Positions 2,291 through 52,840 of a DNA stretch of 55,000 bases are shown piece by piece. Numbering within the stretch: the stretch's first letter is position 1; every line of letters begins with the position of its first letter. Under the pieces are notes generated by a model. It did no database searches, was not told where the DNA came from, and saw only the letters and a list, made by a program, of their open reading frames with translations. The stretch spans positions 207,501 through 262,500 of the forward strand of contig NZ_CP029151.1 of the NCBI RefSeq assembly GCF_003095655.1, written 5' to 3'. Position numbers and translations under genes: made by a program. The stretch comes from Dokdonia sp. Dokd-P16 (GTDB taxonomy: Bacteria > Bacteroidota > Bacteroidia > Flavobacteriales > Flavobacteriaceae).

Positions 2291-2304
2291 TTTTCGCGAA
2301 AGCG
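2291..2304. repeat. Dispersed palindrome copy 1
   Basis: TTTTCGCGAAAGCG, with one altered base in the left arm. It is intergenic, 36 bases past the stop of the DUF4294 gene. Confidence 0.8.
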
Positions 2305-2339
2305 ATACAATGTAATTATACTATATAATAGGTATGATG

Positions 2340-3020
2340 CTACTCTACTCCTTTCTCCTTCCACTTATCTGATAATTCTAAAAACTCAAAGTCTAAAGCG
2401 CTAGGCTGTGTTTCTAGAATTCCTGATTGAAAAGAGCGTTGCAGTATATCTTCTATAAGGAAATCTTCTTCCTCGTTTACTGGATCAAACTCTCTTTTAA
2501 GTGATATGTCAAAAGCACTGGCGGTTGTATTATACCAGAATGCTCTCCAACCACTGCGCAACCTCTTTATCAACTCGAAGGCTGTCTCGCCTGTTTGACG
2601 GTGTATGAGCTTAATAAGTATTTGTCCTTCGGTGCGTGTGAGTTTCTTAAGCTCTGCCGAAAATTCTCCTTCTAGATATTTATGAATGATTTTTGTGTAC
2701 TTCTTTCTAGCGCGTTTGCCCTCTATAGAATCTAATCTACTATTTAATTCTACAAGCCTATCTGCAGCAAGTTTTGCGTATGGAAAAACCTTTCTAGTTT
2801 TTCGGCGTAGTATTAAGTAGCGTCTACGGTCTTCTTTATTATCAAACTTCAATCTTTTAAAAACGATTACCTCATTAAGATATATAGCGCTCCTTGGGAT
2901 GGTGTCTCCCTGAATGATGTAATACTCAATTGCTACTTCTGTAGAATCTACAGGAGTTTCTTGAGCACAAGCAAACCTTGCTATGAATACTATTATATAT
3001 AGGAGATTATGTATGCGCAT
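2340..3020 (-). CDS. DUF4294 family exported protein
   Basis: A 226-residue protein with an N-terminal signal peptide (residues 1-20, cleavage expected after the ACAQ end). The rest is a basic, helical body containing the run YLILRRKTRKVFPYAK near residues 88-103, which I associate with DUF4294 of Bacteroidetes. The function is unknown. The envelope location is inferred from the signal peptide. It is divergent from the M42 peptidase gene, with a TAnnTTTG box (TAATTTTG, 3052-3059) 31 bases upstream of its ATG. Family assignment is from memory of the sequence pattern and is likely but not certain. Confidence 0.8.
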   Translation of the reverse strand: MRIHNLLYIIVFIARFACAQETPVDSTEVAIEYYIIQGDTIPRSAIYLNEVIVFKRLKFDNKEDRRRYLILRRKTRKVFPYAKLAADRLVELNSRLDSIEGKRARKKYTKIIHKYLEGEFSAELKKLTRTEGQILIKLIHRQTGETAFELIKRLRSGWRAFWYNTTASAFDISLKREFDPVNEEEDFLIEDILQRSFQSGILETQPSALDFEFLELSDKWKEKGVE

Positions 3021-3127
3021 CTTTTTCTTTCGCTTTAAGCTAAAATCGTTCCAAAATTAGGTATTAGACCTCTATAACGTTATAAACTCTTGGTTAATAT
3101 TCTTACATTTAAAGAAAATATTATACT

Positions 3128-4216
3128 ATGGCTTCAAAAAGCATTTTAAATAAAAAGTCTCTGGACTTTCTCGAACGTTACCTCAACAACGCTGCTCCTA
3201 CTGGTTATGAGTGGGACGGTCAAAAATTGTGGATGGATTATCTCACTCCTTATGTAGATGAATTTATCACAGATACCTATGGAACTGCAGTTGCAGTAAT
3301 TAATCCAGACGCAAAATATAAAGTAGTAATAGAAGGACATGCAGACGAAATATCTTGGTATGTAAATTACATAGCAGATAATGGTCTTATATATGTAATA
3401 CGTAATGGCGGTAGTGATCACCAGATTGCTCCTTCTAAGATTGTAAATGTGCACACTAAAAATGGCATTGTAAAAGGAGTGTTTGGCTGGCCAGCAATTC
3501 ACACTCGTGATAAGTCTAAAGAAGAAGCTCCAAAACCTGATAACATTTTTATAGATGTAGGGGCAGCAGATAAAGAAGAAGTTGAAAAAATGGGCATATT
3601 TGTAGGCTGTGTAATCACTTACCCAGATACGTTCCATGTTTTAAACGGAGATAAATTTGTGTGCCGTGCTATAGATAATCGTGCAGGTGGCTTTATGATT
3701 GCAGAAGTTGCTAGATTACTTCATGAGAATAAAAAGACCTTACCTTTTGGTCTTTATATTACAAATTCTGTGCAAGAGGAAATAGGGTTACGTGGTGCAC
3801 AAATGATTGCAGAGCGTATTAAGCCAAATGTGGCAATCGTTACAGATGTAACTCATGACACCACAACGCCTATGATAGAGATGAAAAAGCAAGGACATGT
3901 GGAACTAGGTAAAGGACCTGTGATCGCATATGCTCCTGCGGTACAACAAAAGTTACGTGATCGTATTACAGAAACAGCCGAAAAGAATAAACTTCCTTTC
4001 CAGAGAGCTGCACTTTCTCGTGCTACGGGTACAGATACAGATGCATTTGCTTATAGCGGTAGCGGCGTAGCCTCTGCCCTTATATCATTACCTTTAAGAT
4101 ATATGCACACTACTGTAGAAATGGTGCACCGTGAAGATGTAGAAAATGTGATTAAACTTATATATGAAACGCTGCTTACTATAGAAGATGGTGAGACATT
4201 TTCTTATTTTGAATAA
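3128..4216 (+). CDS. M42 family metallopeptidase (glutamyl/leucyl aminopeptidase type)
   Basis: A cytosolic di-zinc aminopeptidase of the M42 (FrvX/PepA-like, formerly 'cellulase M') family, acting late in peptide breakdown. At 362 residues it is normal length. Metal and catalytic motifs are in the family order: GHADEI (His71, Asp73), the AIDNRAGG block near residue 183, QEEIGLRGA (catalytic Glu pair near 220), DVTHDT near 240 and MHTTVEMVHREDV near 330, which supplies the last metal-binding His. There is no signal peptide. The gene stands alone, divergent from DUF4294 and convergent with menB across a bidirectional terminator. Confidence 0.93.
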   Translation: MASKSILNKKSLDFLERYLNNAAPTGYEWDGQKLWMDYLTPYVDEFITDTYGTAVAVINPDAKYKVVIEGHADEISWYVNYIADNGLIYVIRNGGSDHQIAPSKIVNVHTKNGIVKGVFGWPAIHTRDKSKEEAPKPDNIFIDVGAADKEEVEKMGIFVGCVITYPDTFHVLNGDKFVCRAIDNRAGGFMIAEVARLLHENKKTLPFGLYITNSVQEEIGLRGAQMIAERIKPNVAIVTDVTHDTTTPMIEMKKQGHVELGKGPVIAYAPAVQQKLRDRITETAEKNKLPFQRAALSRATGTDTDAFAYSGSGVASALISLPLRYMHTTVEMVHREDVENVIKLIYETLLTIEDGETFSYFE

Positions 4217-4218
4217 TT

Positions 4219-4232
4219 CGCTTTCGCGAAAA
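4219..4232. repeat. Dispersed palindrome copy 2
   Basis: CGCTTTCGCGAAAA, right arm degenerate. It begins two bases after the stop codon of the M42 peptidase and just before the terminator. Confidence 0.8.
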
Positions 4233-5184: not shown

Positions 5185-6321
5185 ATGAAAAAAGTAGTAC
5201 TAAGTGTGATGGTTGTTTTTGCTTTCGCGAAAGCGTACTACGCACAAGAAGTCACCACCGCTCCCTATATTTTTACAGATACTATTGATTTACAAGCTAC
5301 AGCTGTAATAAGTCAAGGTGTTACTGGAACCTGCTGGAGCTTTAGCACATCTTCCTTTTTAGAAAGTGAAATACTAAGACTGACAGGCAACACTGTAGAT
5401 CTGTCTGAAATGTATACGGTAAGGAATATATATCCAGAAAAAGCAGATAACTACATAATGAGACAAGGTAGCGCACAGTTTTCTGAGGGTGGGCTTGCTC
5501 ATGATGTATTACATAGTGTAACAAATTATGGATTAGTTCCCCACGCTGCTTATACTGGACTTGCTGATACAGAAGAAGCTCATAATCATGCCGAAATGGT
5601 AGCAGTATTACATGCTATGCTGGACACCTACATTGATAATCCAGGGCGTAGCTTAAGCAAAAAATGGAAAAAGGCCGTGAATAAAGTGCTAGATGTGTAT
5701 CTAGGAGAAAACTTAGCTACATTTAATTATAATGGTAAAACTTATTCTCCTAAAGAGTTTGCGAGAGAAATGAAAGTAAATCCTAAAAACTATGTGACGC
5801 TTACTTCTTTTACACACCATCCATTTTACACTTCATTTATACTTAATATTCCTGATAACTTTTCAAATGGATCAATGTACAATCTCCCGCTAGATGAATT
5901 TATAAGTAATATAGATCACGCACTAGACAATGGGTTTACAGTTACACTTGACTGTGATGTGAGCGAACTCACATTTTCTTCAAAACATGGTGTAGCCGTT
6001 ATTCCTTCTCGTGATGAGAATAAGAGGATTGCCGTCTTAGGTCCAGAACTAGAAAAAACAATCTCTCAAGAGTATAGACAAGAGGAGTTTGAAAACTACA
6101 ATACTACAGATGACCACCTAATGCATATCACAGGGAAAGCAACCGATCAAAATGCAAACGTCTACTATAAAGTAAAAAACTCATGGGGAACAGATCTAGC
6201 AAAGACTACTTATGACGGCTATGTATATATGAGCGTTGCATATATGAGATTAAAAGCCATTTCTGTACTTCTACATAAAGAAGGACTTTTAAAACAAACT
6301 TCAAGGAAAATTACTTTTTAA
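5185..6321 (+). CDS. Exported C1-type cysteine peptidase (bleomycin hydrolase/PepC-like)
   Basis: A papain-fold cysteine peptidase of 378 residues. The active-site block SQGVTGTCWSFS gives Gln44 (oxyanion hole) and Cys50 (nucleophile). DHLMHITG supplies the likely His311, and KNSWG supplies Asn332. The pattern resembles the C1B branch (bleomycin hydrolase, PepC), which is normally cytosolic and longer. This one starts with a signal-like segment (residues 1-20, hydrophobic core VVLSVMVVFAF), suggesting export to the periplasm or surface. One copy of the dispersed palindrome encodes residues 13-17 (AFAKA) of that signal peptide. It is divergent from menB. Substrate unknown. Confidence 0.85.
   Translation: MKKVVLSVMVVFAFAKAYYAQEVTTAPYIFTDTIDLQATAVISQGVTGTCWSFSTSSFLESEILRLTGNTVDLSEMYTVRNIYPEKADNYIMRQGSAQFSEGGLAHDVLHSVTNYGLVPHAAYTGLADTEEAHNHAEMVAVLHAMLDTYIDNPGRSLSKKWKKAVNKVLDVYLGENLATFNYNGKTYSPKEFAREMKVNPKNYVTLTSFTHHPFYTSFILNIPDNFSNGSMYNLPLDEFISNIDHALDNGFTVTLDCDVSELTFSSKHGVAVIPSRDENKRIAVLGPELEKTISQEYRQEEFENYNTTDDHLMHITGKATDQNANVYYKVKNSWGTDLAKTTYDGYVYMSVAYMRLKAISVLLHKEGLLKQTSRKITF
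5221..5235. repeat. Dispersed palindrome copy 3 (in gene)
   Basis: GCTTTCGCGAAAGCG inside the cysteine peptidase gene. It reads as Ala-Phe-Ala-Lys-Ala at residues 13-17, at the end of the signal-peptide core. Confidence 0.85.
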
Positions 6322-8403: not shown

Positions 8404-10122
8404 TCACTTGATAAAGTTAAAGTAATCAAGCAACACTTTATCGTTGATTTTGCGCGGTGTGAAGATTTCAAGCAACGCAGGTTTATCATTTGATGCATAT
8501 AACTCCGCTTTCGCGAAAGCGCAACTCTCCTCACTATCTGCTTTTAAGTATTTCAAATTATACATCTCACATAACTTCTCTGCCGAAAGGTCGTGCGTAG
8601 TTTCAAAAAACTCATCAAAGTTATCCGTGTTCTTATCCTTATTAGGTAGAATACGGAAAATGCCTCCTCCACTATTATTTATAACGATGATTTTAAAATC
8701 TTGCGGAATATTTTTATTCCACAGCGCATTGCTATCGTAAAAGAAACTTAGCTCTCCTGTGATGAATGTAGTAGGCTTTCCACTTACCATAGCAGCACCT
8801 ATTGCAGTACTCGTGCTTCCATCTATACCGCTAGTCCCTCTATTACAATAAACCTCAAGCGTTTTATTAATATCAAATAGTTGTGCATATCTCACGGTAC
8901 TACTATTACCTAGTTGTAACATTGAGTGATCTGGAATCTCACTGAGAATATGGTCAAATGCTTTAAAATCGCACCATTCCATTTGATTGATATACTCTGT
9001 ATGAAGTCCATCACGTTTTTCTCGTATAGCAAGCCATTCCTGTTGGTAAACACTCTCAGTGTATGAAGTGTGATCTCGCAAGTTTTCTAAAAAGTGGGAA
9101 GCCGAAGTTTCAAAATGTTTATTAAGACAGAAATAAGTATCATAAGCTTTCTTTGCGTCAACATGCCAGTGCTGTTCTGGCTGGTAATTTCTAAGAAAAG
9201 CTTTTACCTTTTTTGAAACCACCATTCCTCCAAAGGTTAATAGAATGTCTGGCTGCAATGCTTTGAAACCATCATCATCTAGACTACCGATTATATTGTC
9301 TATGCGAGTAAAGAAATTAGGGTGAGAAACATTTGAAGTTGTCTCTGTAAAAACAATAACGCTAGGATCATTACCTAACATATCAAGTAATGATTGTTCC
9401 ATCACATTTGGCCCTTGTACACCGACTATTACAAGCTTACGTGTTGCATGATTCCAGCTATCCATATAGGGTTGTAACTCGTCTAAAGATAACTGACCAA
9501 TAATTTTATGAGGTGCTACCTCTATAGGTTTTGCTATCGCCACATCTGTCATTTCATACAAAGGCTCGTAAAAAGGAACATTAATATGTACTGGGCCAGA
9601 TTGTTCAATCGCTATATTAAGCGCTTTATTAATCTCTTGATCATTATGTCGCTGGCTCTCCTTTATTTTCTGAGCAATCTTAGTATCCGTAACCTCATCT
9701 GTGGGCACTAATTCTGAATATAAGTTTGCCGAATATAAAATGTGATTTTCAAAAACATTCTTTTGTCTTATCGTTTGTCCATCTCCTATATCTATACGTT
9801 CTATAGGTCTATCTGCACTTATAGCTATAAGCGGGATATCACTGTAAAAAGCTTCGGAGATCGCTGGATAGTAATTAAGTAAAGCACTACCTGAAGTACA
9901 TACAATAGCCACAGGCTTTCTAGATTGCTGTGCTATTCCTAAAGCTACAAAAGCAGCACAGCGCTCATCTACAATGCTGTGTGCTTTTATGTTTGGATTT
10001 TTTGTAAACTCAATGGTGAGCGGTGCGTTACGGGACCCTGGAGATATGATAACCGTGTCAATTCCTTTACTTAAGCAAAGGTGAACGATAGATTGTGCTA
10101 CAGGAATTTTAGAGTGAATCAT
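8404..10122 (-). CDS. menD: 2-succinyl-5-enolpyruvyl-6-hydroxy-3-cyclohexene-1-carboxylate synthase (MenD)
   Basis: Thiamine-diphosphate enzyme joining isochorismate and 2-oxoglutarate in menaquinone synthesis. It has 572 residues from the ATG at 10122. The N-terminal SPGSRNAPLTIEF block binds substrate, the ITGELSFFYDSNALWN segment and the later INNSGGGIFRILP form the cofactor and Mg site, and all three TPP-enzyme domains are present. I chose 10122 over an in-frame ATG at 10149 because MIHSKIPVAQSIV is the family N-terminus and because a TATTTTTG promoter box lies between them. A dispersed palindrome encodes AFAKA near the C-terminus. It follows menF by about 100 bases. Confidence 0.96.
   Translation of the reverse strand: MIHSKIPVAQSIVHLCLSKGIDTVIISPGSRNAPLTIEFTKNPNIKAHSIVDERCAAFVALGIAQQSRKPVAIVCTSGSALLNYYPAISEAFYSDIPLIAISADRPIERIDIGDGQTIRQKNVFENHILYSANLYSELVPTDEVTDTKIAQKIKESQRHNDQEINKALNIAIEQSGPVHINVPFYEPLYEMTDVAIAKPIEVAPHKIIGQLSLDELQPYMDSWNHATRKLVIVGVQGPNVMEQSLLDMLGNDPSVIVFTETTSNVSHPNFFTRIDNIIGSLDDDGFKALQPDILLTFGGMVVSKKVKAFLRNYQPEQHWHVDAKKAYDTYFCLNKHFETSASHFLENLRDHTSYTESVYQQEWLAIREKRDGLHTEYINQMEWCDFKAFDHILSEIPDHSMLQLGNSSTVRYAQLFDINKTLEVYCNRGTSGIDGSTSTAIGAAMVSGKPTTFITGELSFFYDSNALWNKNIPQDFKIIVINNSGGGIFRILPNKDKNTDNFDEFFETTHDLSAEKLCEMYNLKYLKADSEESCAFAKAELYASNDKPALLEIFTPRKINDKVLLDYFNFIK
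8506..8521. repeat. Dispersed palindrome copy 4 (in menD)
   Basis: Perfect 16-mer. On the menD strand it reads as Ala-Phe-Ala-Lys-Ala in the poorly conserved C-terminal region. Confidence 0.9.
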
Positions 10123-10128
10123 TAGTAA

Positions 10129-10136
10129 CAAAAATA
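10129..10136 (-). promoter_or_regulatory. Possible menD -7 box, leaderless
   Basis: TATTTTTG lies six bases upstream of the menD ATG, so transcription would start at or next to the start codon. No clear TTG at -33. Confidence 0.45.
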
Positions 10137-10222
10137 CGATTTCTACCATTTAGAATTGAGCATCTATAATCAGGAATTATAGAAAATTTGAGATACTTTA
10201 TTTCTCAGATAGCCCCTTCATG

Positions 10223-11356
10223 TCATGCAGGACGCAGTACCTTAGCAACAGTTTGTAACTTATTTACAGTTTCCTCCCACTCTGCTAGGGCATCGCTAGA
10301 TCCTGTTATTCCTCCACCCACATATAGTTGTGCACCTTGAGCATCTACCTCCATGCATCGCAAGTTTACAAATAAATGAGTGTGTTTTTTTATCGCGCCA
10401 TAAGCAAGGTTCTCAACGTTTCTACGAGTACTTGCTCTCTTTTTTTCTGTTTTGTAATTAAGTTCCCCTAAGAAACCTGTGTAATAAGAACGCGCATATC
10501 CTTCATGATTAAGGATAAATTCCTTTGCTTCTTCTTTTGGTAGTCCGCAAACGGCTGGTGTGGGATGTAAAGCATTTACTACAGCAGCTATGCTTGTTTC
10601 ATTTTCATTAATGATTGCAGAAATATCTGTCTTGAGATGTAGCAAAGTTCCTGCTTGCTGGGTCGTAACATCAGAAACTTGAAGATCATTTACAAGCGTC
10701 AATAGATTTTCGACAATAGAGTCTGTGACAAATTGTTGTTCCTCTTGTTCTTTTTCTCCCCAGACCACATCAGAACTAGCGCTTGTTTTCTGTGTTCCAG
10801 CTAGCGACATTGTATGCAAACGTCTATTATTTATAGATAATAATGTTTCTGGCGTAGCTCCTAGCCATAAACCTACATTAGGGTGATACCAGCAATACAC
10901 AAACGCGGTCTTATAAGTCCCTAGTAATCGCTTAAAAAGCTCAACAGGAGATTCATAGTTATGCGGTATGTTTTGCTTTCGCGAAAGCACCACTTTCTTC
11001 ATAACCGTATTTGCTATGGCTTCAATTCCTTTTTTTACTAGTTTAATATGAGTCTCACGATCCTCATTTGTGTGATTAACTACGATTGTTTCTGCTTCTA
11101 ATAGCATCTCATTTTCAAAGGAATTGAGTTCCATTGCAAAAGACTCTTCAGCAGGAATTAAGACAGTCTCTGAAGTCGATGCATCAAAAGGTGCAAACAC
11201 GAAGCCACTTTCTGAAAAGTCATTTACTTCGTGAAGCGATTCATCATCTTGTAAAAGCGCATGAATCTTTTCTTCATTAGGTTTTCTATAAACCACAAAT
11301 GGTAATGCACTTTCAAAATGCTCATCGATATGTTCAAAAAAGTCTGTGCTATTCAT
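10223..11356 (-). CDS. menF: Isochorismate synthase (MenF/EntC family)
   Basis: Chorismate-binding enzyme converting chorismate to isochorismate, the first committed step of menaquinone synthesis. It has 377 residues. Conserved blocks in order are KVVLSRK (121-127), WLGATPETLL, LHTMSLAGT, the HPTPAVCGLPKEEA signature, YYTGFLGEL and the C-terminal LYVGGGI. The location beside menD and menI favours a menaquinone role over siderophore synthesis. The start codon overlaps the menI stop by one base (TAATG), indicating translational coupling. A palindrome copy encodes the LSRK of the first conserved block. Confidence 0.94.
   Translation of the reverse strand: MNSTDFFEHIDEHFESALPFVVYRKPNEEKIHALLQDDESLHEVNDFSESGFVFAPFDASTSETVLIPAEESFAMELNSFENEMLLEAETIVVNHTNEDRETHIKLVKKGIEAIANTVMKKVVLSRKQNIPHNYESPVELFKRLLGTYKTAFVYCWYHPNVGLWLGATPETLLSINNRRLHTMSLAGTQKTSASSDVVWGEKEQEEQQFVTDSIVENLLTLVNDLQVSDVTTQQAGTLLHLKTDISAIINENETSIAAVVNALHPTPAVCGLPKEEAKEFILNHEGYARSYYTGFLGELNYKTEKKRASTRRNVENLAYGAIKKHTHLFVNLRCMEVDAQGAQLYVGGGITGSSDALAEWEETVNKLQTVAKVLRPA
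10975..10988. repeat. Dispersed palindrome copy 5 (in menF)
   Basis: GCTTTCGCGAAAGC, a perfect 14-mer. Here the coding frame gives Leu-Ser-Arg-Lys within a conserved block of the enzyme. Confidence 0.85.
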
Positions 11357-12453: not shown

Positions 12454-13044
12454 ATGAAAGTAAAGAAATTAGAAAACGAAAGAGCAAAATTACTTGCCTT
12501 AGAGAATTACCATTACAGTGATCTTCTTCCATTATCACAAGAAGTAGACCTCAACGCCTATGGCGGTTCGGATATATCTACGGGGCCTAAACTAAAGGCG
12601 TACATAAAGGATGCAATAGAAAGGCAATCATTAGGAACTGCTTTACCTTTTATCATTTTTGACAAAAAACTTTGCAAATTTGCTGGCTCCACACGTTATG
12701 GAAATATAGATGATGTCAATAAAATTGTCCATATAGGATGGACTTGGCTTGGAGAAGATTTTCGCGGAAGCGGTCTTAACTTACATGTCAAGTTTCTCAT
12801 GCTACGTTATGCTTTTGAAAAACTTCGCTATGAACGTGTAGAGTTTCGTATTGACGAGCGCAATATTCGCTCAAGAAAAGCAGTAGAAAAGCTAGGCGCT
12901 ACCTTAGAAGGTATCATGCGCAAAGATATTGTTACAAAAAACGGTAGACGTCGTAATTCTTGTTGCTATTCAATTCTCAAAGAAGAATGGGAAGAAATCA
13001 AGAACACACGATTTATTGATATTCTAGATAGTAAAGAAGAGTAG
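12454..13044 (+). CDS. GNAT family N-acetyltransferase (RimJ/RimL type)
   Basis: A 196-residue acetyltransferase. The core WTWLGEDFRGSGLNLHVKFLML (split near 107-128) carries the acetyl-CoA-binding loop. FRIDERNIRSRKAVEKLGATLEG (near 132-154) is the RimJ/RimL-like ending, associated with protein or small-molecule N-acetylation. The substrate is unknown. It directly follows a terminator and is convergent with mtaB. A palindrome lies 14 bases past its stop. Confidence 0.87.
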   Translation: MKVKKLENERAKLLALENYHYSDLLPLSQEVDLNAYGGSDISTGPKLKAYIKDAIERQSLGTALPFIIFDKKLCKFAGSTRYGNIDDVNKIVHIGWTWLGEDFRGSGLNLHVKFLMLRYAFEKLRYERVEFRIDERNIRSRKAVEKLGATLEGIMRKDIVTKNGRRRNSCCYSILKEEWEEIKNTRFIDILDSKEE

Positions 13045-13058: not shown

Positions 13059-13074
13059 CGCTTTCGCGAAAGCG
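13059..13074. repeat. Dispersed palindrome copy 6
   Basis: Perfect 16-mer in the 35-base gap between the convergent GNAT and mtaB stop codons. Confidence 0.9.
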
Positions 13075-14509: not shown

Positions 14510-15634
14510 CTAATCATTGGTTGCTAAGAATTTGTTTCTGGCAGCTACGGCATCTTTAGTATAGTCGCTAAAAACTCCATCTACGCCTGCCTCAAAAAAC
14601 AGTTGATACTCGGTAATTCCTTCATTATTCTCACTCCACAAAGTATCTTCTTTCCTAAAGGTGTAGGGATGTACTTCTAGCTTCTGCTCATGTGCAAGCG
14701 CTACAAAGTCTGTAGATGCTAGCATCTCAACCTCTCCTTCATCCGTTTTACTATAAGAAATTACAAAAGGTTTCCAAGGACCTATTCCATCGGCATAGGT
14801 AGAAACAAACTTCATTCCTTCTTTGGTTGTGAAGTAATTGTATGTACGAGCATCTTTACTCAGTATGAAATCATAAGGTTGCCCTTCTGGATCATAGCTA
14901 CCATCTTCTTTGGAAAAGCGTAAATCTCCATTGCTAGAGATTCCAGCTGCACCAATAAGTTGTATAAGTCGCACATCTGAACGTGCTGAAATGTATTGCA
15001 ACGTACTCACCTCAAAACATTGGACAAAAATGGGTGAGCTTTTATCCACATAACCAGCCTTTGTAATCTGATTAAGGAAGAGATCTTCCATTACAAGCCC
15101 TAATTCTCGGTGATAACTAGGATGCTTTAATTCTGGATAAATACCCACAGGATTTCCTGATGTGGTTTTGTTCGCTTTCGCGAAAGCGATAATCTCCTCA
15201 AACGTAGGGATCTCAAAAAGATCATCATACTCGTGTGTTCTCTCCTCCCAAGACTGCCTCGCTCGTAGTGTTTTGAGTTCGCTAAGAGTGAAGTCAGATA
15301 CAAACCAATCTGTTACAGGTACACCATCAAGCATTTTTGTGGTTTTACGATCTGCATATTCTGGGAGTACAGAGACATTAGTAGTTCCAGAAATAAAAGG
15401 CTCATGCCTAGCTACAAGAACGCCATCCTTTGTCATCACAAGATCTGGCTCTATGAAATCTGCGCCTAGTTCGATTGCTTTTTTATACCCTTCCATCGTA
15501 TGTTCTGGATATAAAAATTGCGCTCCCCTGTGTGCAATAACAATAGGCGTATTATGAATTTGAGGTTGCTCCATTTGATTACAAGATAAGATGAGTATTG
15601 AAAATAAAAGCGATATTCTTTTTAAACTAATCAT
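14510..15634 (-). CDS. Glycerophosphodiester phosphodiesterase, lipoprotein (GlpQ-like)
   Basis: Hydrolyses glycerophosphodiesters to glycerol-3-phosphate and an alcohol. Lipobox LILSC follows a short signal from the ATG at 15634, so the enzyme should be periplasmic or membrane-anchored. The HRGAQFLYPEHT and EPDLVMTKDGVLVARHEP segments hold the metal and catalytic residues, and the E(L)KHP motif and C-terminal GVDGVFSDY are present. It has 374 residues, GlpQ-sized. An upstream extension to 15673 would run into the murA terminator and is rejected. A palindrome encodes AFAKA in the middle of the gene. Confidence 0.93.
   Translation of the reverse strand: MISLKRISLLFSILILSCNQMEQPQIHNTPIVIAHRGAQFLYPEHTMEGYKKAIELGADFIEPDLVMTKDGVLVARHEPFISGTTNVSVLPEYADRKTTKMLDGVPVTDWFVSDFTLSELKTLRARQSWEERTHEYDDLFEIPTFEEIIAFAKANKTTSGNPVGIYPELKHPSYHRELGLVMEDLFLNQITKAGYVDKSSPIFVQCFEVSTLQYISARSDVRLIQLIGAAGISSNGDLRFSKEDGSYDPEGQPYDFILSKDARTYNYFTTKEGMKFVSTYADGIGPWKPFVISYSKTDEGEVEMLASTDFVALAHEQKLEVHPYTFRKEDTLWSENNEGITEYQLFFEAGVDGVFSDYTKDAVAARNKFLATND
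15173..15188. repeat. Dispersed palindrome copy 7 (in phosphodiesterase gene)
   Basis: Perfect 16-mer reading Ala-Phe-Ala-Lys-Ala in a helix of the TIM-barrel enzyme. Confidence 0.9.
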
Positions 15635-15639
15635 GTAGA

Positions 15640-15647
15640 CAAAGGTA
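15640..15647 (-). promoter_or_regulatory. Possible phosphodiesterase -7 box, leaderless
   Basis: TACCTTTG lies five bases upstream of the ATG at 15634, between the gene and the murA terminator. No convincing -33 TTG at the right distance. Confidence 0.45.
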
Positions 15648-15660
15648 GAATCTATTCCAC

Positions 15661-15693
15661 AAAAAAGGCGCAAATATCACTTGCGCCTTTTTT
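15661..15693 (-). terminator. murA terminator
   Basis: A 13-base stem (15661-15673 with 15681-15693) has a seven-base loop and A/T runs at both ends, 23 bases past the murA stop. Confidence 0.9.
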
Positions 15694-17986: not shown

Positions 17987-18000
17987 TTTTCGCGAAAGCA
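17987..18000. repeat. Dispersed palindrome copy 8
   Basis: TTTTCGCGAAAGCA, imperfect at both ends. It lies nine bases past the stop of the DUF493 gene. Confidence 0.75.
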
Positions 18001-18008: not shown

Positions 18009-18299
18009 TTACAATGAAATAACGCCTTCTATCTTACCTACTTCCTTATACTTTTCTATCACAACATCAGGATTATCTAGACGTACGTTTATAGAAACGC
18101 TTGTGTACTTCCCTGTGCGAGATACATTCTTTTTTATTACAGCTCCTAGGTGGTCAAAGAGCCCTTCAATTTGCGCTTCTTTCTCTGCATTTGCAGGCAC
18201 AATAAACTTGTACAAATAAGGTGCAGGCCAGCTAGAAGTTTCTTCTAGTTGTGTCTTTAATTTTTTATAAAACTCTTCTGGATTTTTATCTAAACTCAT
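18009..18299 (-). CDS. DUF493 (YbeD-like) family protein
   Basis: A 96-residue protein with the ferredoxin-like alpha/beta pattern of DUF493/YbeD, often regarded as a small regulatory fold. The YLYKFIVPANAE strand, the VSRTGKYTSVSINVRL hairpin and the C-terminal VEGVI-like strand fit. In E. coli, ybeD sits beside lipB, but no such neighbour is seen here. It is divergent from the P-loop kinase gene, with a TACCTTTG box at 18317-18324. Confidence 0.88.
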   Translation of the reverse strand: MSLDKNPEEFYKKLKTQLEETSSWPAPYLYKFIVPANAEKEAQIEGLFDHLGAVIKKNVSRTGKYTSVSINVRLDNPDVVIEKYKEVGKIEGVISL

Positions 18300-20801: not shown

Positions 20802-21748
20802 GAGATTTACGCATAGTTTTCATGGGTACACCAGAGTTTGCAGTAACTATATTAAATGGTCTACTAGAAGAAGAATATAATGTAGTGGGAGTAATCACCG
20901 CACCAGATCGTCCTGCAGGAAGAGGACAGAAAGTAAGAGAAAGTGATGTTAAGGCGTTTGCAAAGGCAAGAAACCTCAACATCCTACAACCTACAAACCT
21001 TAAAAGTGAAGAGTTTTTAAAAGAACTAAAAGACCTTAATGCAAACCTACAGATTGTCGTTGCCTTTAGAATGCTTCCAGAAGCTGTATGGAAAATGCCA
21101 ACTTATGGAACCTTTAATTTACACGCATCGCTCTTACCTCAATATCGTGGTGCCGCGCCTATAAACTGGGCAATTATTAATGGAGAGACAGAAACAGGTG
21201 TTACTACATTCTTTATTGATGAAAAAATTGATACCGGTGAGATTATATTACAAGAGAAACTCGCTATAGATGATAAGGAAAATGCTGGCGTATTACATGA
21301 CCGTCTTATGATTGCAGGTAAAGAACTTGTAGTAAAAACGGTAAAAGCTATAGCGATAGATGAAGTAAGCACTTTTGTACAAGACTCCAGTAGAGAACTC
21401 AAAACAGCATATAAGTTACATAGTGAGAATACGAGAATAGACTGGGATGCTCCTCTTCAAGACATTTACAATCACATAAGAGGATTGAGTCCTTATCCAG
21501 CAGCTTACACAATGCTAGAAAATGGAGGAAAAGAGCAACGTGTAAAAATTTATAGCGCTTTCGCGAAAGCAGAAAAAGAGATGTTTATTCCATCTGGAGC
21601 AGTCACCCAAGTAGATGATCATCTAGCTATCGCAACGCCAGAAGGTTACATATGCATCACCGAAATACAGCTTTCTGGGAAGAAAAAAATGGCCGTTAAA
21701 GACCTTTTAAACGGATACAAATTTGATAAAAATGCAAAAATGCGCTAA
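20798..21748 (+). CDS. fmt: Methionyl-tRNA formyltransferase
   Basis: Formylates initiator Met-tRNA using 10-formyl-tetrahydrofolate. It has 316 residues, the usual length. The catalytic triad is visible as Asn107 and His109 (NLHASLLP) and Asp145 (FFIDEKIDTG). The C-terminal OB-like tRNA-binding domain is complete. ATGA overlap with recQ implies coupled translation. A palindrome encodes AFAKA in the C-terminal domain. The same peptide occurs once more near residue 53, but with different codons and no palindrome. Confidence 0.97.
   Translation: MRDLRIVFMGTPEFAVTILNGLLEEEYNVVGVITAPDRPAGRGQKVRESDVKAFAKARNLNILQPTNLKSEEFLKELKDLNANLQIVVAFRMLPEAVWKMPTYGTFNLHASLLPQYRGAAPINWAIINGETETGVTTFFIDEKIDTGEIILQEKLAIDDKENAGVLHDRLMIAGKELVVKTVKAIAIDEVSTFVQDSSRELKTAYKLHSENTRIDWDAPLQDIYNHIRGLSPYPAAYTMLENGGKEQRVKIYSAFAKAEKEMFIPSGAVTQVDDHLAIATPEGYICITEIQLSGKKKMAVKDLLNGYKFDKNAKMR
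21556..21570. repeat. Dispersed palindrome copy 9 (in fmt)
   Basis: CGCTTTCGCGAAAGC, reading Ala-Phe-Ala-Lys-Ala in the C-terminal domain. Confidence 0.88.
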
Positions 21749-22364: not shown

Positions 22365-22379
22365 ATTTTCGCGAAAGCA
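22365..22379. repeat. Dispersed palindrome copy 10
   Basis: ATTTTCGCGAAAGCA, imperfect. It lies 14 bases past the menA stop codon. Confidence 0.75.
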
Positions 22380-23378: not shown

Positions 23379-25070
23379 ATGATTAAAAATAATCTCATGA
23401 TGAATCTCAAATCTATTGCCGCACTACTTCTTGTAATTCTTTCAGTTTTAAGTTGTAAACAAAAAGAAACTACAGCAGCCCATGTTGAAGTGGAAGAAAA
23501 AAAACCTTTTTTCTGGGAAGCTGCAAATATGTATTTCTTACTCACAGATCGCTTTAATAACGGCGATACAAGTAATGATGTCAACTTTGAGAGAACTCAA
23601 GACGCTGCGGTATTAAGAGATTTTATGGGTGGTGACATCAAAGGAATTACGCAGAAGATAGAAGACGGTTATTTTACAGATCTTGGGATCAACGCTATCT
23701 GGTTTACTCCAGTAGTAGAGCAAGTACATGGAGCAGTAGATGAAGGAACTGGTGTTACTTATGGTTATCACGGTTACTGGACTAAGGACTGGACTTCACT
23801 TGACCCTAACTTTGGCACGAGAGAGGACTTACAATCATTAATAAGTGCAGCACATCAAAAGGATATACGCATTGTTATGGATGTGGTACTTAATCACACA
23901 GGTCCTGTAACACAAGAAGACCCATTCTGGGGTGAAGACTGGGCAAGAGAAAACCCTAATTGCGCCTTCAGCACTTATGAGAATACTACTGCTTGTAGTC
24001 TTGTAGAAAACCTACCAGACATCCTTACCGAGAGTGATCAAGAAGTTGCACTTCCAGCTACACTAGTTGCAAAGTGGAAGTCTGAAGGACGTTATGATGA
24101 GGAAATGGCAGAGCTTGACTCTTATTTCGCAGCAAACAACCTAAAGAAAACACCGCGCAATTACATTATAAAATGGCTTACGGACTACATTAGAGACTTT
24201 GGAGTAGATGCTTTTAGAGTAGATACTACAAAACATGTGGATGAAGCCTCATGGGTGGCATTAAGAGCACAAGCAGATATAGCCTTTGCGGATTATAAGG
24301 CAAACAATGAAGACAAAGTTATGGATGATAATGACTTTTTCATGTTTGGAGAAGTTTATAATTACTCTATAGATGGAGGTCGTGATTATGATTTTGGAGA
24401 TAAAAAGGTAGATTACTTTGCAAATGGCTTTGATAATCTGATTAATTTCCAATTTAAATATGATGCTCAAGGAAGTTATGAGCAGCTATTTAGTAAGTAT
24501 GCGACAATAAAGGATTCTATTTTTAGCGATAAGAGTTTTGTAAACTATGCTACCTCACATGATGATGGACAACCGTTTGACAAAGACCGAAACAAAGCAA
24601 TAGAAACAGGTACTAAGCTCTTATTAACTACGGGGATATCTCAGGTTTATTATGGTGATGAAACTGCAAGAGACTTAACGATAGAAGGAACAGATGGTGA
24701 TGCAACCCTGCGTAGCTTTATGAACTGGAAAGATATTAACAGTAGTACTACAAATGAGGTTCTTGCTCACTGGCAAAAGCTAGGAACTTTTAGAAGAGAC
24801 CATCCTTCGGTAGGTGCTGGTACTCATGAGATGCTAAGTGCAGCTCCTTATGTATTTAAAAGATCATTTGACAAAAATGATATGAAAGATACTGTGGTCG
24901 TAGGACTAGACCTCAATATTGGGAAGAAAGATATTGTGGTGGGTAACGCTTTCGCGAAAGCGCAAACTGTCAAGGACACTTACTCGGGACAAGAGGCTAG
25001 TATTATCGACGGTAAGATAACTCTTGATACTCCTTATGATATTGTTTTACTAGAGGTTGTAAAAAACTAA
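23379..25070 (+). CDS. GH13 alpha-amylase family lipoprotein
   Basis: A glycoside hydrolase acting on alpha-glucans. It has 563 residues from the ATG at 23379. A lipoprotein signal ends in LSVLSC (Cys26), so it is envelope-anchored. Conserved GH13 regions are DVVLNHTG, FRVDTTKH (nucleophile Asp282), FGEVYNY (acid/base Glu325) and SHDDG (Asp395). Alternative starts at 23397 and 23400 are possible; further upstream extension overlaps menA and is unlikely. A palindrome encodes AFAKA in the C-terminal beta domain. It is convergent with the flavin reductase gene, their ends overlapping by three bases. Confidence 0.92.
   Translation: MIKNNLMMNLKSIAALLLVILSVLSCKQKETTAAHVEVEEKKPFFWEAANMYFLLTDRFNNGDTSNDVNFERTQDAAVLRDFMGGDIKGITQKIEDGYFTDLGINAIWFTPVVEQVHGAVDEGTGVTYGYHGYWTKDWTSLDPNFGTREDLQSLISAAHQKDIRIVMDVVLNHTGPVTQEDPFWGEDWARENPNCAFSTYENTTACSLVENLPDILTESDQEVALPATLVAKWKSEGRYDEEMAELDSYFAANNLKKTPRNYIIKWLTDYIRDFGVDAFRVDTTKHVDEASWVALRAQADIAFADYKANNEDKVMDDNDFFMFGEVYNYSIDGGRDYDFGDKKVDYFANGFDNLINFQFKYDAQGSYEQLFSKYATIKDSIFSDKSFVNYATSHDDGQPFDKDRNKAIETGTKLLLTTGISQVYYGDETARDLTIEGTDGDATLRSFMNWKDINSSTTNEVLAHWQKLGTFRRDHPSVGAGTHEMLSAAPYVFKRSFDKNDMKDTVVVGLDLNIGKKDIVVGNAFAKAQTVKDTYSGQEASIIDGKITLDTPYDIVLLEVVKN
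24947..24962. repeat. Dispersed palindrome copy 11 (in amylase gene)
   Basis: Perfect 16-mer reading Ala-Phe-Ala-Lys-Ala in the C-terminal domain. Confidence 0.9.
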
Positions 25071-30180: not shown

Positions 30181-30182
30181 CT

Positions 30183-30254: not shown

Positions 30255-30284
30255 CAATTTTTATAATTACTAGAAAAAACAATA

Positions 30285-30621: not shown

Positions 30622-30636
30622 CGCTTTCGCGAAAGC
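30622..30636. repeat. Dispersed palindrome copy 12
   Basis: CGCTTTCGCGAAAGC in the gap between rpsT and rplS, after the rpsT terminator. The rest of this gap (to 30763) holds the rplS leader, with a possible TTAGG/CCTAA pairing (near 30695 and 30731). Confidence 0.88.
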
Positions 30637-31641: not shown

Positions 31642-33864
<2,223 letters not shown>

Positions 33865-33871: not shown

Positions 33872-33887
33872 CGCTTTCGCGAAAGCG
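33872..33887. repeat. Dispersed palindrome copy 13
   Basis: Perfect 16-mer seven bases after the icd stop codon and before its terminator. Confidence 0.9.
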
Positions 33888-37275: not shown

Positions 37276-37291
37276 CGCTTTCGCGAAAGCG
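37276..37291. repeat. Dispersed palindrome copy 14
   Basis: Perfect 16-mer 11 bases after the DUF4249 stop, in the short gap before the M23 peptidase gene. Confidence 0.9.
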
Positions 37292-42813: not shown

Positions 42814-42827
42814 TTTTCGCGAAAGCG
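42814..42827. repeat. Dispersed palindrome copy 15
   Basis: TTTTCGCGAAAGCG. Unlike most intergenic copies it is upstream of a gene, 20 bases before a TATTTTTG box (42847-42854), where the -33 element would lie. Confidence 0.8.
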
Positions 42828-42871: not shown

Positions 42872-43792
42872 ATGAAGAAGCTCACGCTTTTACTTGCTCT
42901 TATATTTTTAATCGTGTCATGTGATGACGGCGACGTTATTGTTACGGAACTTGATTTTGATGACGTTGAGTTACAACGATGTGAGAATGTAAGTGATGTT
43001 ACTAACTATGTTTTTTATAAGACCAAATCTAGTACTAATGAGGCGCTTGCTTTACAATTTGAGACAGATGAGCCTTTATTTGAAGAAGTAAATACCTCTT
43101 ATTCTATATTACTTTCTGGAACAGATCAATACTCATACCGTGTATTTAATGGAGATCCAAGCAACTACTTTTGTAATGCGATACCACCTACAAGTCCATT
43201 GGTTCAAGAAGAGTTTATAAGTACAGATGGTCTGGTAGAAATATTTTCTAGCGGTACAGAAAGCGACGCAGATGGTATTCCTACAGAAATAGAAGACCCT
43301 ACACTGCTGCTAGATACAGATCTTGACGGAATCCTTGATTACTTAGATTTTGATGATGATGGAGATAATGTACCTACTAGACTTGAGGGTGTGGTTTTAA
43401 ATGAAGATGAGACAGCGATAGATTTAATGTTATCCCGCGACACAGACGGAGATATGATTCCAGATTATCTTGATGATGATGATGATGGCGATGGGATTCT
43501 TACAAGAAATGAAGATTTAAACAGAGACTTAAACCCAAATAATGATAAATCTGATCTTGATTTTCCAACGGTCCCAGATTACTTAAACCCAAATATTACT
43601 GTAGAAACTGTAGTAGACGTCTATCGTGAAAACGAGTACTTTATATCGGATTTAACGCTAGATATCACGATTACTAATACGGTGCTTATTAACCCTGCAA
43701 ATCAGGAAGAATTGCGAGATGAGACATTACAATTGCTAGGAACATACGCTGCAGGTGATGTGTCAATAAAGGATACCCCACTGTTTAATTAG
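42872..43792 (+). CDS. Hypothetical lipoprotein with Asp-rich repeats
   Basis: A 306-residue protein. The lipobox VSC (Cys17) follows a short signal. Residues about 135-225 carry repeated DTDxDGxxDxxDxDDDGD motifs, as in thrombospondin type 3-like calcium-binding repeats. The N- and C-terminal parts are unassigned. Probably a calcium-binding surface lipoprotein; the role is unknown. It is divergent from the cysteine desulfurase gene and convergent with the Smr gene, one base apart. Confidence 0.83.
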   Translation: MKKLTLLLALIFLIVSCDDGDVIVTELDFDDVELQRCENVSDVTNYVFYKTKSSTNEALALQFETDEPLFEEVNTSYSILLSGTDQYSYRVFNGDPSNYFCNAIPPTSPLVQEEFISTDGLVEIFSSGTESDADGIPTEIEDPTLLLDTDLDGILDYLDFDDDGDNVPTRLEGVVLNEDETAIDLMLSRDTDGDMIPDYLDDDDDGDGILTRNEDLNRDLNPNNDKSDLDFPTVPDYLNPNITVETVVDVYRENEYFISDLTLDITITNTVLINPANQEELRDETLQLLGTYAAGDVSIKDTPLFN

Positions 43793-43793
43793 A

Positions 43794-44333
43794 TTATGTA
43801 TTCTGGAAAATGTAGACTTCGGTAGCTCCTACTCCATACTTCTGAAAATCTGCATCATAAAACCTAAGATTATCATACCTACGAAGTAGTGTATATAGCT
43901 CATCACGAAGTACTCCTTCTCCCACTCCATGTATAAAAACCATCTTAGGAATACGTTTTTTGATTGCAAATTCTAATTGTCTAGTGGCAGTATCGAGTTG
44001 AACGGTAAGAATTTCATAATTACTCATACCACGTTCCCTATCGACTAACTTATGGATATGTAAATCCACCTCAAACATGGGAGCATTGCGCTCTTTAGGA
44101 TTTACCTTTATCGCTTTCTTTCTTTTTGCCTCTTCTTTTTCTGAAATTACAGAATCTGGCACTACAGAAAGTGCTGCTCTCATACTCTTAGAAACTGCTG
44201 GTATAAGCTCGCTTTCGCGAAAATAGGATATAAAGCCATCCTCATCTTCTACCGAAACTTCATCCTCTTTTATGAGCACCACAACGCCCTCAAAATCATC
44301 GTCTAACGCTTGCACTTGATCTCCTAATTTCAT
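43794..44333 (-). CDS. Smr domain protein (MutS2-like C-terminal domain)
   Basis: A 179-residue protein. An N-terminal SH3-like segment (MKLGDQVQALDDDFEGVVV) is followed by a C-terminal Smr domain with VDLHIHKL and IHGVGEGVLRDEL. Smr domains are nucleases or nucleic-acid binders, as in MutS2. No MutS ATPase is present, so it is a stand-alone Smr protein. A palindrome encodes the FRES of the SYFRESEL linker. It is preceded by 140 bases of non-coding DNA before the T9SS cargo gene. Confidence 0.87.
   Translation of the reverse strand: MKLGDQVQALDDDFEGVVVLIKEDEVSVEDEDGFISYFRESELIPAVSKSMRAALSVVPDSVISEKEEAKRKKAIKVNPKERNAPMFEVDLHIHKLVDRERGMSNYEILTVQLDTATRQLEFAIKKRIPKMVFIHGVGEGVLRDELYTLLRRYDNLRFYDADFQKYGVGATEVYIFQNT
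44210..44223. repeat. Dispersed palindrome copy 16 (in Smr gene)
   Basis: CGCTTTCGCGAAAA, right arm degenerate. The gene uses a third reading frame of the element, giving Phe-Arg-Glu-Ser. Confidence 0.8.
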
Positions 44334-50214: not shown

Positions 50215-51627
50215 ATGGGAAGACGTAAACAAAACAGACAGGTTTTTGAGAATATTACTGTAACAGATGCAGGTGCAAAAGGTAAAGCTATCGGTCACGC
50301 GCCAGATGGAAAAGTAATTTTCATCAATAATGCAGTACCTGGTGATGTTGTAAACGTACAAACTACAAAGAAGCGTAAAGCTTATTATGAGGGAACGGCA
50401 ACGGAGGTTTTAACGCTTTCGCGAAAGCGTACTCAACCTCAATGTGAGCATTTTGATGCATGTGGTGGCTGTAAATGGCAACACATGGATTACAAGTTTC
50501 AACTAGAATACAAACAGCAAGAGGTAGAAAACAACCTAAAACGCTTAGGTAAAATAGAACTTCCCGAGCTTACACCTATCGCTGGGAGCTCAGAACAATA
50601 CTTTTATCGCAATAAAATGGAGTTTGGCTTTTCTGACTCAAAATGGCTTACACTTGAACAGATAAAAAGTGATGAAGTCATTGAAGATAGAAATGCCCTA
50701 GGCTTCCATATCGCTGGAATGTGGGATAAAATACTTGATATTGACAAATGTCACTTACAACGTGATCCTAGTAATGCCATACGTAATGGTATAAAAGAAT
50801 TTGCAACTGCAAATAATATGGCATTTTATAATGCTCGTAATCAAGATGGACTCCTTCGTACACTAATGATACGCACATCATCTAATGGTGAGTTAATGGT
50901 GTTAATTCAATTCTTTAAGGAAGAAACTGAGAATAGAGAATTACTCCTTAACTATATAAAAGACACTTGGCCAGAAATAACTTCGCTATTATATGTAATA
51001 AATAGTAAAGGGAACGATACTATTTATGATCAAGAAGTTATATGCTTCTCTGGAAGAGATCATATTTTTGAAGAAATGGAAGGTCTTAAGTTTAAAATTA
51101 ATGCCAAATCATTCTACCAAACAAATTCAAAACAAGCTTACGAACTTTACAAAATCACGCGAGACTTTGCTGGACTTAGTGGTAATGAATTAGTGTATGA
51201 CTTATATACTGGAACCGGTACTATTGCTCAGTTTGTAGCCAAGAAAGCCAGAAAAGTGATTGGTGTAGAAGCTGTACTAGATGCAATTGAAGCTGCTAAA
51301 GAAAATGCAAAGCTTAATGGCATTGAGAATACAGAGTTTTTTGTGGGTGACATGAAGAAAGTATTCAATACAGAATTTATAAATGCCCATGGCGTTCCAG
51401 ATATTATTATCACAGATCCTCCTAGAGATGGAATGCACGCAGACGTTGTACAGCAAATTATAAACATATCACCAGAAAAAGTGGTGTATGTGAGTTGTAA
51501 TAGCGCAACACAAGCACGTGATCTTGCGTTATTAGATGATACCTACAAAGTAACTAAGGTTCAACCTGTAGATATGTTCCCGCAGACTCATCATGTTGAG
51601 AATGTAGTGTTGCTTGAAAAGAGATAA
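50215..51627 (+). CDS. rlmD: 23S rRNA (uracil-C5)-methyltransferase RlmD
   Basis: SAM-dependent enzyme making 5-methyluridine in 23S rRNA (position 1939 in E. coli). It has 470 residues. An N-terminal TRAM domain (about 8-65) is followed by an iron-sulfur site formed by Cys77, Cys83, Cys86 and Cys179. The SAM site is DLYTGTGTIAQF, then TDPPRDGMH and VSCNSATQ with the catalytic Cys. The RlmCD or TrmA-like alternative is less likely given the cluster cysteines. A palindrome encodes TLSRKR between the TRAM domain and the first cluster Cys. Confidence 0.92.
   Translation: MGRRKQNRQVFENITVTDAGAKGKAIGHAPDGKVIFINNAVPGDVVNVQTTKKRKAYYEGTATEVLTLSRKRTQPQCEHFDACGGCKWQHMDYKFQLEYKQQEVENNLKRLGKIELPELTPIAGSSEQYFYRNKMEFGFSDSKWLTLEQIKSDEVIEDRNALGFHIAGMWDKILDIDKCHLQRDPSNAIRNGIKEFATANNMAFYNARNQDGLLRTLMIRTSSNGELMVLIQFFKEETENRELLLNYIKDTWPEITSLLYVINSKGNDTIYDQEVICFSGRDHIFEEMEGLKFKINAKSFYQTNSKQAYELYKITRDFAGLSGNELVYDLYTGTGTIAQFVAKKARKVIGVEAVLDAIEAAKENAKLNGIENTEFFVGDMKKVFNTEFINAHGVPDIIITDPPRDGMHADVVQQIINISPEKVVYVSCNSATQARDLALLDDTYKVTKVQPVDMFPQTHHVENVVLLEKR
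50414..50429. repeat. Dispersed palindrome copy 17 (in rlmD)
   Basis: Perfect 16-mer reading Thr-Leu-Ser-Arg-Lys-Arg in the linker after the TRAM domain. Confidence 0.9.
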
Positions 51628-51628
51628 T

Positions 51629-52132
51629 ATGAGAAAGCTACTTTTAATATTAATAATAAGTGCCAGTTTTGGACAGAGTTCTTGCGAACGAGATGATATC
51701 TGTGCAGAGACTACTCCCACTACTCCGTTACTTATTATTGAGTTTTATGATGTAGATAACCCAACATTATTAAAAGCTCCTAATAATCTAACGGTCTCAA
51801 CAATTGTTAATGAAGAGGTAAACGAAGTGCTAGCGCTCGTAAACCTAGAAAGTATAGAAATTCCTTTACGTACAAATGACGAACTCACAACGTACTCATT
51901 TACTATCAATACTGCCGAAGATGATGAGGAAGAAGCCAATACGGATGTTTTAACTTTCACTTACACCGTCACAGATGAGTTTGTAAATAAAGCATGTGGC
52001 TTTAGAGTAGTATATGACGATTTACAAAATACAAATGATCCTCAACAAGATGGAGCATGGATACAAAATATAGATATTGAAAACCCAACGGTTAATGATC
52101 AAACTGAAGCACATATTTCTATTTTTCACTAG
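51629..52132 (+). CDS. DUF6452 family lipoprotein
   Basis: A 167-residue protein. The signal MRKLLLILIISASFGQSSC suggests lipidation at Cys19. CERDDICAETTPTTPLLIIEFYD matches DUF6452 of Bacteroidetes, function unknown. The start at 51629 is one base after the rlmD stop; an in-frame ATG 15 bases earlier overlaps rlmD and is less likely. The 3' end overlaps the DUF6048 gene by 38 bases. Confidence 0.85.
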   Translation: MRKLLLILIISASFGQSSCERDDICAETTPTTPLLIIEFYDVDNPTLLKAPNNLTVSTIVNEEVNEVLALVNLESIEIPLRTNDELTTYSFTINTAEDDEEEANTDVLTFTYTVTDEFVNKACGFRVVYDDLQNTNDPQQDGAWIQNIDIENPTVNDQTEAHISIFH

Positions 52133-52817
52133 TATAATTCTCACCGTTTTCACCAGCTCTGTAAGAGCTCAAAAAACGTCTATAGAAAATACTGCTAGTG
52201 ATTCTATCACTGCTCCTGCAGACTACTATGGTTTACGCCTTGGTGTGGATATTTCTAAACCTATTAGGTCCTTTCTAGACGATAATTACAAAGGACTAGA
52301 ACTCGTTGCAGACTTTAGACTTAAGAAGAATTACTATGTTGCTGCAGAAATAGGTAACGAAACCTGGAACTCTGACCTCCCTAATCTTGAGAATACCACA
52401 AGCGGAAGTTACATTAAAGCAGGTTTCAATTATAATACCTATGAAAACTGGTTTGGGATGAACAATCTCATTTACGCAGGTGTTAGAGCCGGTTTCTCTA
52501 GTTTTAGTCAGGAGCTAGAGAGTTATACAATTTACACCACAAATCCAGTATTTGGTGATGACACTAGGTCAATAAGTCAAGAATTCAAAGGTCTCAATGC
52601 CACTTGGCTCGAACTCAAAATTGGCTTAGAGGTAGAATTATTTAGCAACATCTACCTAGGGGTCAACGCACAATTAAAAAGAACTGTTACAACTACAGAC
52701 CCAGACGGCTACTCTAACTTATATATACCAGGATTCGGAGAACTCACAGAAGGCACTCCTATAGGCGTAGGTTATGGATATACACTATCATATCTAATCC
52801 CTATTTTCAAAAACTAA
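52095..52817 (+). CDS. DUF6048 family outer-membrane protein
   Basis: A 240-residue protein. The signal peptide is about 1-25 (ending SVRAQ). The body is a predicted small beta-barrel with DYYGLRLGVDISKPIRSF and GYSNLYIPGFGELT, matching DUF6048. The function is unknown. It starts at the ATG 52095, inside the end of the DUF6452 gene, so the pair is translationally coupled; I recall rlmD-DUF6452-DUF6048 in this order in related genomes. Confidence 0.86.
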   Translation: MIKLKHIFLFFTSIILTVFTSSVRAQKTSIENTASDSITAPADYYGLRLGVDISKPIRSFLDDNYKGLELVADFRLKKNYYVAAEIGNETWNSDLPNLENTTSGSYIKAGFNYNTYENWFGMNNLIYAGVRAGFSSFSQELESYTIYTTNPVFGDDTRSISQEFKGLNATWLELKIGLEVELFSNIYLGVNAQLKRTVTTTDPDGYSNLYIPGFGELTEGTPIGVGYGYTLSYLIPIFKN

Positions 52818-52824
52818 TTATTTA

Positions 52825-52840
52825 CGCTTTCGCGAAAACG
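52825..52840. repeat. Dispersed palindrome copy 18
   Basis: CGCTTTCGCGAAAACG, one mismatch in the right arm. It lies seven bases after the DUF6048 stop and two bases from the convergent methyltransferase stop. Confidence 0.85.

Follow-up and report, generated by a model that had tools for sequence, protein, structure and literature searches.

HIP1 (GCGATCGC), the highly iterated palindrome of cyanobacteria, was described in 1995 and its use is still open, according to portions of PMC4390886; the same portions link it to methyltransferases for GATC and CGATCG and hold no mention of Bacteroidetes or Flavobacteria. Here we explore a palindrome, TTTCGCGAAA extending to the 16-mer CGCTTTCGCGAAAGCG, that recurs through a 55,000-nucleotide stretch of Dokdonia sp. 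Dokd-P16 (hereafter the window; positions 207501-262500 of a genome that forms a single contig of 3,623,447 bases, labelled G000, genus g1, Dokdonia). Some marine bacteria around Dokdonia and some phages have a copy of it about once per few thousand letters, and natural selection holds the bacterial copies in place. A first-pass annotation, made from the letters of the window alone, had likened its style to that of HIP1 while noting that the words differ, and this is supported: both are genome-iterated palindromes far above expectation, in coding as well as intergenic DNA. The motif differs from HIP1 in its word, in an invariant core of ten instead of eight bases, in phylum, and in that three carriers match neither of the two methyltransferase families searched, PF00145 and PF01555, unlike HIP1 with its tie to the GATC and CGATCG enzymes.

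The DNA uptake sequences (DUS) of Neisseriaceae and the uptake signal sequences (USS) of Pasteurellaceae resemble the motif in being clade-limited, in numbering about 1000 copies and in combining a strict core with softer flanks; they are not known to be palindromes, and a palindrome is unusual among known uptake sequences. Chi sites are likewise over-represented and a few kb apart, but the known ones are short, directional and non-palindromic, unlike the symmetric word described here, and models of RecC and AddB found no match. Noc, MatP and SlmA sites are also palindromic, being bound by dimeric chromosome-organising proteins, and have tens of copies with regional bias, unlike the roughly 1000 copies found here, which are uniform along the chromosome and show no regional bias. 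Repetitive extragenic palindromes and bacterial interspersed mosaic elements (REP/BIME) are defined by confinement to intergenic DNA, unlike a motif with about half of its sampled copies in genes. The motif would work like the class of HIP1, uptake sequences and Chi but could be filed as a member of none. A literature search, judged by titles and the starts of abstracts and with most subscription journals outside its coverage, found no report on this motif in these bacteria. New are the retention of places, the deficit of short gaps, the unenriched sub-words, the multi-copy phage contigs, the three carriers with neither methyltransferase family and the silent RecC and AddB models. The motif adds to HIP1 an independent example of such iteration, from a different phylum, for which the choices are narrowed by the strict site, selection on single sites, few close pairs, phage contigs, apparently scattered carriers and the three carriers without the tested methyltransferase families; it opens the function of such arrays to tests by pull-down and by comparison of carriers with relatives that lack the motif.

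Abundance, strictness and retention in place

The window holds 18 exact copies of TTTCGCGAAA, which is its own reverse complement, against a mean of 0.07 and a maximum of 2 in 100 dinucleotide shuffles. This confirms the first-pass annotation in the shared core, its 18 positions and the expectation of far fewer than one copy from composition. Its further statements that many copies reach the full 16-base palindrome and that sites lie 0.8 to 6.2 kb apart agree with our counts: seven of the 18 are perfect 16-mers, 17 lie within three mismatches of it, and the smallest gap is 808 bp, the largest 6204 bp. Genome-wide there are 1074 copies of the core (reversed-word control, 10). A 455-kb sample, made up of the window and 20 dispersed stretches of 20 kb each, contains 140 copies where a third-order Markov model expects 0.42, an excess of about 330-fold, and the palindrome is the top-enriched one at lengths 6, 8, 10 and 12. 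The excess reaches well beyond the window, each of the twenty stretches holding 2-8 copies, with a mean of 6.1 and a variance of 2.9, a uniform distribution along the chromosome. Neither of the two outcomes that the first-pass annotation had named as refuting it, counts at the Markov level and enrichment confined to the window, was observed.

The logo is symmetric; outside the ten-base core, which is invariant by construction, follow GC (~0.9), G (~0.75-0.8) and a weak TAA. Forms with one mismatch in the core number 29 in the sample against 13.1 expected, which is twofold. With the motif masked, its sub-words are not enriched in the sample: CGCG occurs 386 times (expected 476), TCGCGA 30 (25) and TTCGCGAA 2 (1.4). 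The recognised unit would therefore be the whole palindrome. Two other words, CATG and GATC, are under-represented in the same sample, with 957 and 1294 occurrences where 1548 and 1779 are expected, as restriction avoidance might produce.

Conservation of the sites in alignments, a check that the first-pass annotation had proposed, was counted at the window sites alignable in each relative, with random aligned 10-mers as control. Sites are kept far above this control: 17/18 in G004 (identical random 10-mers, 62%), 5/5 in G011 (54%), 16/18 in G005 (37%), 12/12 in G001 at 77% DNA identity (12%), 5/5 in G009 (6%), 6/8 in G007 (10%), 3/4 in G014 (8%) and 1/1 in G003 (4%). Two of the twelve in G001 sit right where an aligned block ends, leaving 10/10 without them, and six window sites have no alignment there. 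Each loss in G004 and G005 is due to one substitution. Sites absent from the window are present in relatives, one each in G004, G005 and G003 and two each in G009 and G007. Within genes, 7/8 sites are kept in G005, 5/5 in G001, 3/3 in G007 and 1/1 in G003, far above the share of amino-acid-identical 4-mers encoded by the same bases (35-44%, 12-18%, 9-16% and 6-11%, respectively), and protein constraint is therefore not the cause. One further coding site, outside the 3/3, is lost in G007, where the peptide itself differs.

Placement, spacing and carriers

By our own gene calls, eight window sites lie within genes and ten between them. The sample divides into 72 coding and 68 intergenic sites, or 0.18 and 1.35 per kb, an intergenic density 7.6 times the coding one. 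Coding sites occupy all three frames (36, 21 and 15) and encode AFAKA, LSRK or FRES. At 22 intergenic sites one or two stop codons precede the motif by 10-32 bp (25 stop-to-site distances), and 11 of 62 placed intergenic sites are in divergent intergenic DNA. The first-pass claim that no gene has two sites holds for the eight genes of the window and fails in the sample, in which 66 genes have one site and three have two or more.

Close neighbours are rare. Gaps shorter than a quarter of the mean number 9 against 21.8 expected for the first 100 sites of G000, 5 against 21.7 for the first 100 of G001, 0 of 92 gaps against 20.1 in 400 kb of G223 (genus g10) and 7 against 17.7 in 400 kb of G178 (genus g162); the deficit is 2.4-4.3-fold in G000, G001 and g162, and g10 has no such gap at all. 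A null that preserves the coding or intergenic class gave the same outcome for g10 and g162. The coefficient of variation of the gaps is 0.48 in g10, whose largest gap is 10.4 kb, and the signal from this coefficient is weak in G001 (P 0.033). Close pairs were also considered as a lead to a binding protein that regulates its own gene, and this was dropped: the four pairs under 420 bp in the DNA examined have no common neighbour gene. Two long gaps in G001 (G001:C1:288426-301721 and 305125-320283) span giant genes of ~4,430 and ~5,050 residues with no site inside, sites on both sides and a near-identical shorter gene in two copies adjoining. A 23-kb site-free stretch in G000 (G000:C1:89946-113221) is low in GC with few genes called, and is possibly acquired DNA.

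All 18 genus genomes searched, G000 included, carry 481-1195 copies each (832 in G007). Among 249 family genomes of 202 genera only five exceed 34 copies: G000 and G003 of g1, G026 (595) and G223 (700) of g10, and G178 (559) of g162, a genus with one genome in the set. A search of 392 phylum genomes, a draw that left out g10 and g162, for the 14-mer gave 808 occurrences in G000, no more than 6 in any other genome and no more than one in any genome outside the family. The genus was named from a contig of an uncultured Dokdonia sp. (the submitter's name) that is 92.6% identical to G001, and not from isocitrate dehydrogenase, whose matches extend well beyond the phylum. When other genera are ranked by 16S match to the window, G223 (91%) comes after 23 genomes and G178 (89%) after more than 60; G261 and G147 come first, at 93% each, with only 25 and 2 copies. 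By 16S the carriers therefore look scattered rather than one clade, on an identity that is not a tree and for which 101 of the 249 genomes gave no match.

In 400 kb of the g10 genome G223 there are 93 sites where 0.13 are expected; 75 are 16-mers, and the density is 1.08 per kb in intergenic and 0.13 in coding DNA. The 400 kb of the g162 genome G178 (46% GC) contain 82 sites (0.62 expected), of which 25 are 16-mers, at 0.39 and 0.18 per kb. One-mismatch forms number 14 against 6.6 expected in g10 and 56 against 16.8 in g162. The idea that ancestral sites are common between the genera was rejected, the shared fraction of aligned coding sites, counted from the first-named genome, being 1/10 for G000-G223, 2/4 for G000-G178 and 1/4 for G223-G178. 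This sharing exceeds what site density alone would give, which therefore suggests that the sites either date back to a common ancestor or converged where peptides are compatible. The few sites at most 80 bp after a stop include none that is shared between genera. As for the shared sites, the FRE of kynureninase is present in the human protein too, the primase relatives in the alignments shown are without the peptide, a NusB-like match stops short of the site, and another relative search found no relative.

Few-copy genomes contain small clusters. Five of the nine cores of G153 lie inside 19 kb (G153:C1:311233-330040) in and around genes that read as efflux and heavy-metal transport-like from sequence alone, a segment probably acquired from a motif-bearing lineage. 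In G103, four of 14 cores fall inside 12 kb (G103:C1:2612308-2624387) in a gene cluster that looks hydrogenase-like on the same basis, and their flanks mostly fall short of the 16-mer. G084, of genus g68, has two perfect 16-mers 1.5 kb apart (G084:C3, near 32330-33800), which may be remnants or acquired DNA; G261, of the same genus, is nearest by 16S yet has 25 cores.

In the viral set the 16-mer was found in 41 stretches of 30 contigs. Two or more cores are present in 21 of the 30, with 66 sites in 342 kb, counts to which a 14-mer scan contributed only extra pieces of contigs already found. The reversed 16-mer occurs in 14 contigs, of which one has its core twice and the other 13 have it once. 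The resulting density of the motif, ~1 per 5 kb, is biased upward because contigs were picked for it, and the GC-rich contigs with one copy look like chance matches. Portal, head and tail proteins are encoded on the two contigs checked, and a terminase on one of them. In a non-redundant phage set at 66-71% identity the site is kept at 4 of just 7 compared positions, the other three being losses, against 6.6% of random 10-mers. Winogradskyella phage Peternella_1, a relative of one motif phage, has no site in 37 kb and shows a different peptide, with no gap, at the terminase site; it carries transposase genes, so the motif phage is perhaps temperate.

A putative DNA-binding protein and its alternatives

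We consider it about evenly balanced whether one putative homodimeric, sequence-specific DNA-binding protein, which needs roughly one site per few kb, recognises the palindrome strictly and with high affinity. Such a protein would act per length of DNA, with one site wanted every few kilobases on resident DNA and a second nearby site adding little. Sites would be born by point mutation in intergenic DNA or where the peptide is compatible (AFAKA, LSRK, FRES) and then be held by purifying selection; most likely they would serve as regularly spaced anchors or marks of resident DNA, in the manner of a nucleoid loop anchor or a self-DNA mark. The invariant core, the symmetric softer flanks, the unenriched sub-words, the kept places, the few short gaps, the uniformity and the multi-copy phage contigs support this. 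A binding site for a protein had been among the roles offered by the first-pass annotation, and the strict symmetric site and its spacing fit it. Several observations weigh on the other side. No cognate protein was found, nor was any gene shown to track the carriers, whole gene contents not having been compared. Strictness is not absolute, because one-mismatch copies exceed expectation twofold (Dokdonia, g10) to threefold (g162), and of the 559 sites of g162 no more than 153 reach the full 16-mer. The variation of the gaps in G000 alone is not significant (P 0.076), gaps as long as ~23 kb (G000) and ~17 kb (G001) occur, and the viral contigs were chosen as motif-bearing. Selection is a likelier cause than the selfishness or repair drive offered by the annotation, since places are kept and one-mismatch copies are few in Dokdonia (29 against 13.1, beside 140 against 0.42), although a drive that also keeps places may act. 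It is rather unlikely that the palindrome is a length-counting self-DNA mark for which a horizontally movable determinant demands a copy every few kb, phages having acquired it to match and three genera of one family having adopted the system separately, each writing several hundred to a thousand sites by point mutation.

Among the alternatives to a protein-bound array, a DNA uptake sequence of natural transformation, whose sites would accumulate and stay as DNA bearing them is taken up preferentially, fits the clade limits, the hundreds to ~1000 copies per genome in coding and intergenic DNA, the few short gaps and the motif islands in genomes otherwise of few copies. We rate it as rather unlikely, as a palindrome is uncommon among known uptake sequences and the carriers are not clade-like by 16S. 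Natural competence with a preference for own DNA is reported for Riemerella columbina, of the same family, in portions of PMC7965970, but the lines examined of its table have only A-rich frequent words. A Chi-like signal that halts degradation by a helicase-nuclease would be needed at intervals by resident DNA and phages alike, in keeping with the few-kb spacing, the phage-contig sites and the rarity of short gaps; it is nonetheless unlikely, with RecC (PF04257) matched in 0/30 and the AddB model (PF21445), which may miss flavobacterial AddB, in 0/28 genomes, carriers and non-carriers, and with known Chi sites being short and not palindromic. Temperate phages would fit the anchor or mark, uptake and nuclease-switch readings alike.

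A palindrome with a central CGCG also invites the model laid out for HIP1 in the portions of PMC4390886 mentioned, in which the motif arises and persists through a methyltransferase together with biased repair. The methyltransferase-linked site of the first-pass annotation found no support for the two families searched: among eight carriers, PF00145 (C5) had no match in four (G000, G007, G223, G178) and PF01555 (N4/N6) none in six (G000, G001, G003, G007, G009, G223), so that G000, G007 and G223, with 1074, 832 and 700 copies, match neither. Together with the unenriched sub-words this makes the model improbable here. As determinants, the models of C5 and N4/N6 methyltransferases, RecC and AddB were all rejected, none of them tracking the carriers. 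Most improbable is a transcription terminator or REP-like hairpin element, suggested by the palindrome itself, the intergenic preference and the sites shortly after stop codons: it was set aside for the coding share, in all three frames, and for the separate terminator-like hairpin after site 13. The sites in divergent intergenic DNA and the few decayed copies also speak against it, and among six sites in 15 kb scanned only site 15 was itself called terminator-like.

The 18 sites of the window

Table 1. Copies of the palindrome in the window, in window coordinates; those of the core TTTCGCGAAA are given, or of the 16-mer where it is perfect.
Site	Coordinates	Form	Surroundings (encoded peptide)	Relatives
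1	2292..2301	core	intergenic, beyond stop of minus-strand gene 2340-3020	kept G004, G005
2	4222..4231	core	just past stop of gene 3128-4216	lost G004 (one substitution), kept G005
3	5223..5232	core	within gene 5185-6321 (FAFAKA)	kept G004, lost G005 (one substitution)
4	8506..8521	perfect 16-mer	within menD gene 8404-10149 (CAFAKA)	
5	10977..10986	core	within isochorismate synthase gene 10223-11356 (VLSRKQ)	
6	13059..13074	perfect 16-mer	between convergent genes 12454-13044 and 13080-14423	
7	15173..15188	perfect 16-mer	within glycerophosphodiester phosphodiesterase-like gene 14510-15673, best family below cut-off (IAFAKA)	
8	17988..17997	core	intergenic, past stop of called minus-strand gene 18009-18299	
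9	21559..21568	core	within fmt gene 20798-21748 (SAFAKA)	kept G001, G007
10	22367..22376	core	past stop of minus-strand gene 22394-23296	
11	24947..24962	perfect 16-mer	within alpha-amylase-like gene 23163-25070 (NAFAKA)	kept G001, G007, G014
12	30625..30634	core	between two tRNA-Glu genes and L19 leader (30703-30730)	kept 6/6 alignable
13	33872..33887	perfect 16-mer	between isocitrate dehydrogenase stop (33864) and separate terminator-like hairpin 33902-33929	kept 7/7 alignable
14	37276..37291	perfect 16-mer	past stop of gene 36371-37264	lost G005 (one substitution), kept G004, G011, G001, G009, G003
15	42815..42824	core	between divergent genes 41519-42676 and 42872-43792	kept G004, G011, G005, G001
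16	44213..44222	core	within gene 43794-44333 (YFRESE)	kept G004, G011, G005, G001, not G007
17	50414..50429	perfect 16-mer	within rlmD (rumA) gene 50215-51627 (TLSRKR)	kept 6/6 alignable
18	52828..52837	core	between convergent genes 52077-52817 and 52843-54030	kept 5/5 alignable

The two tRNA-Glu genes next to site 12 form a tandem pair at 30063-30255, and the L19 leader that follows is of the flavobacterial type.

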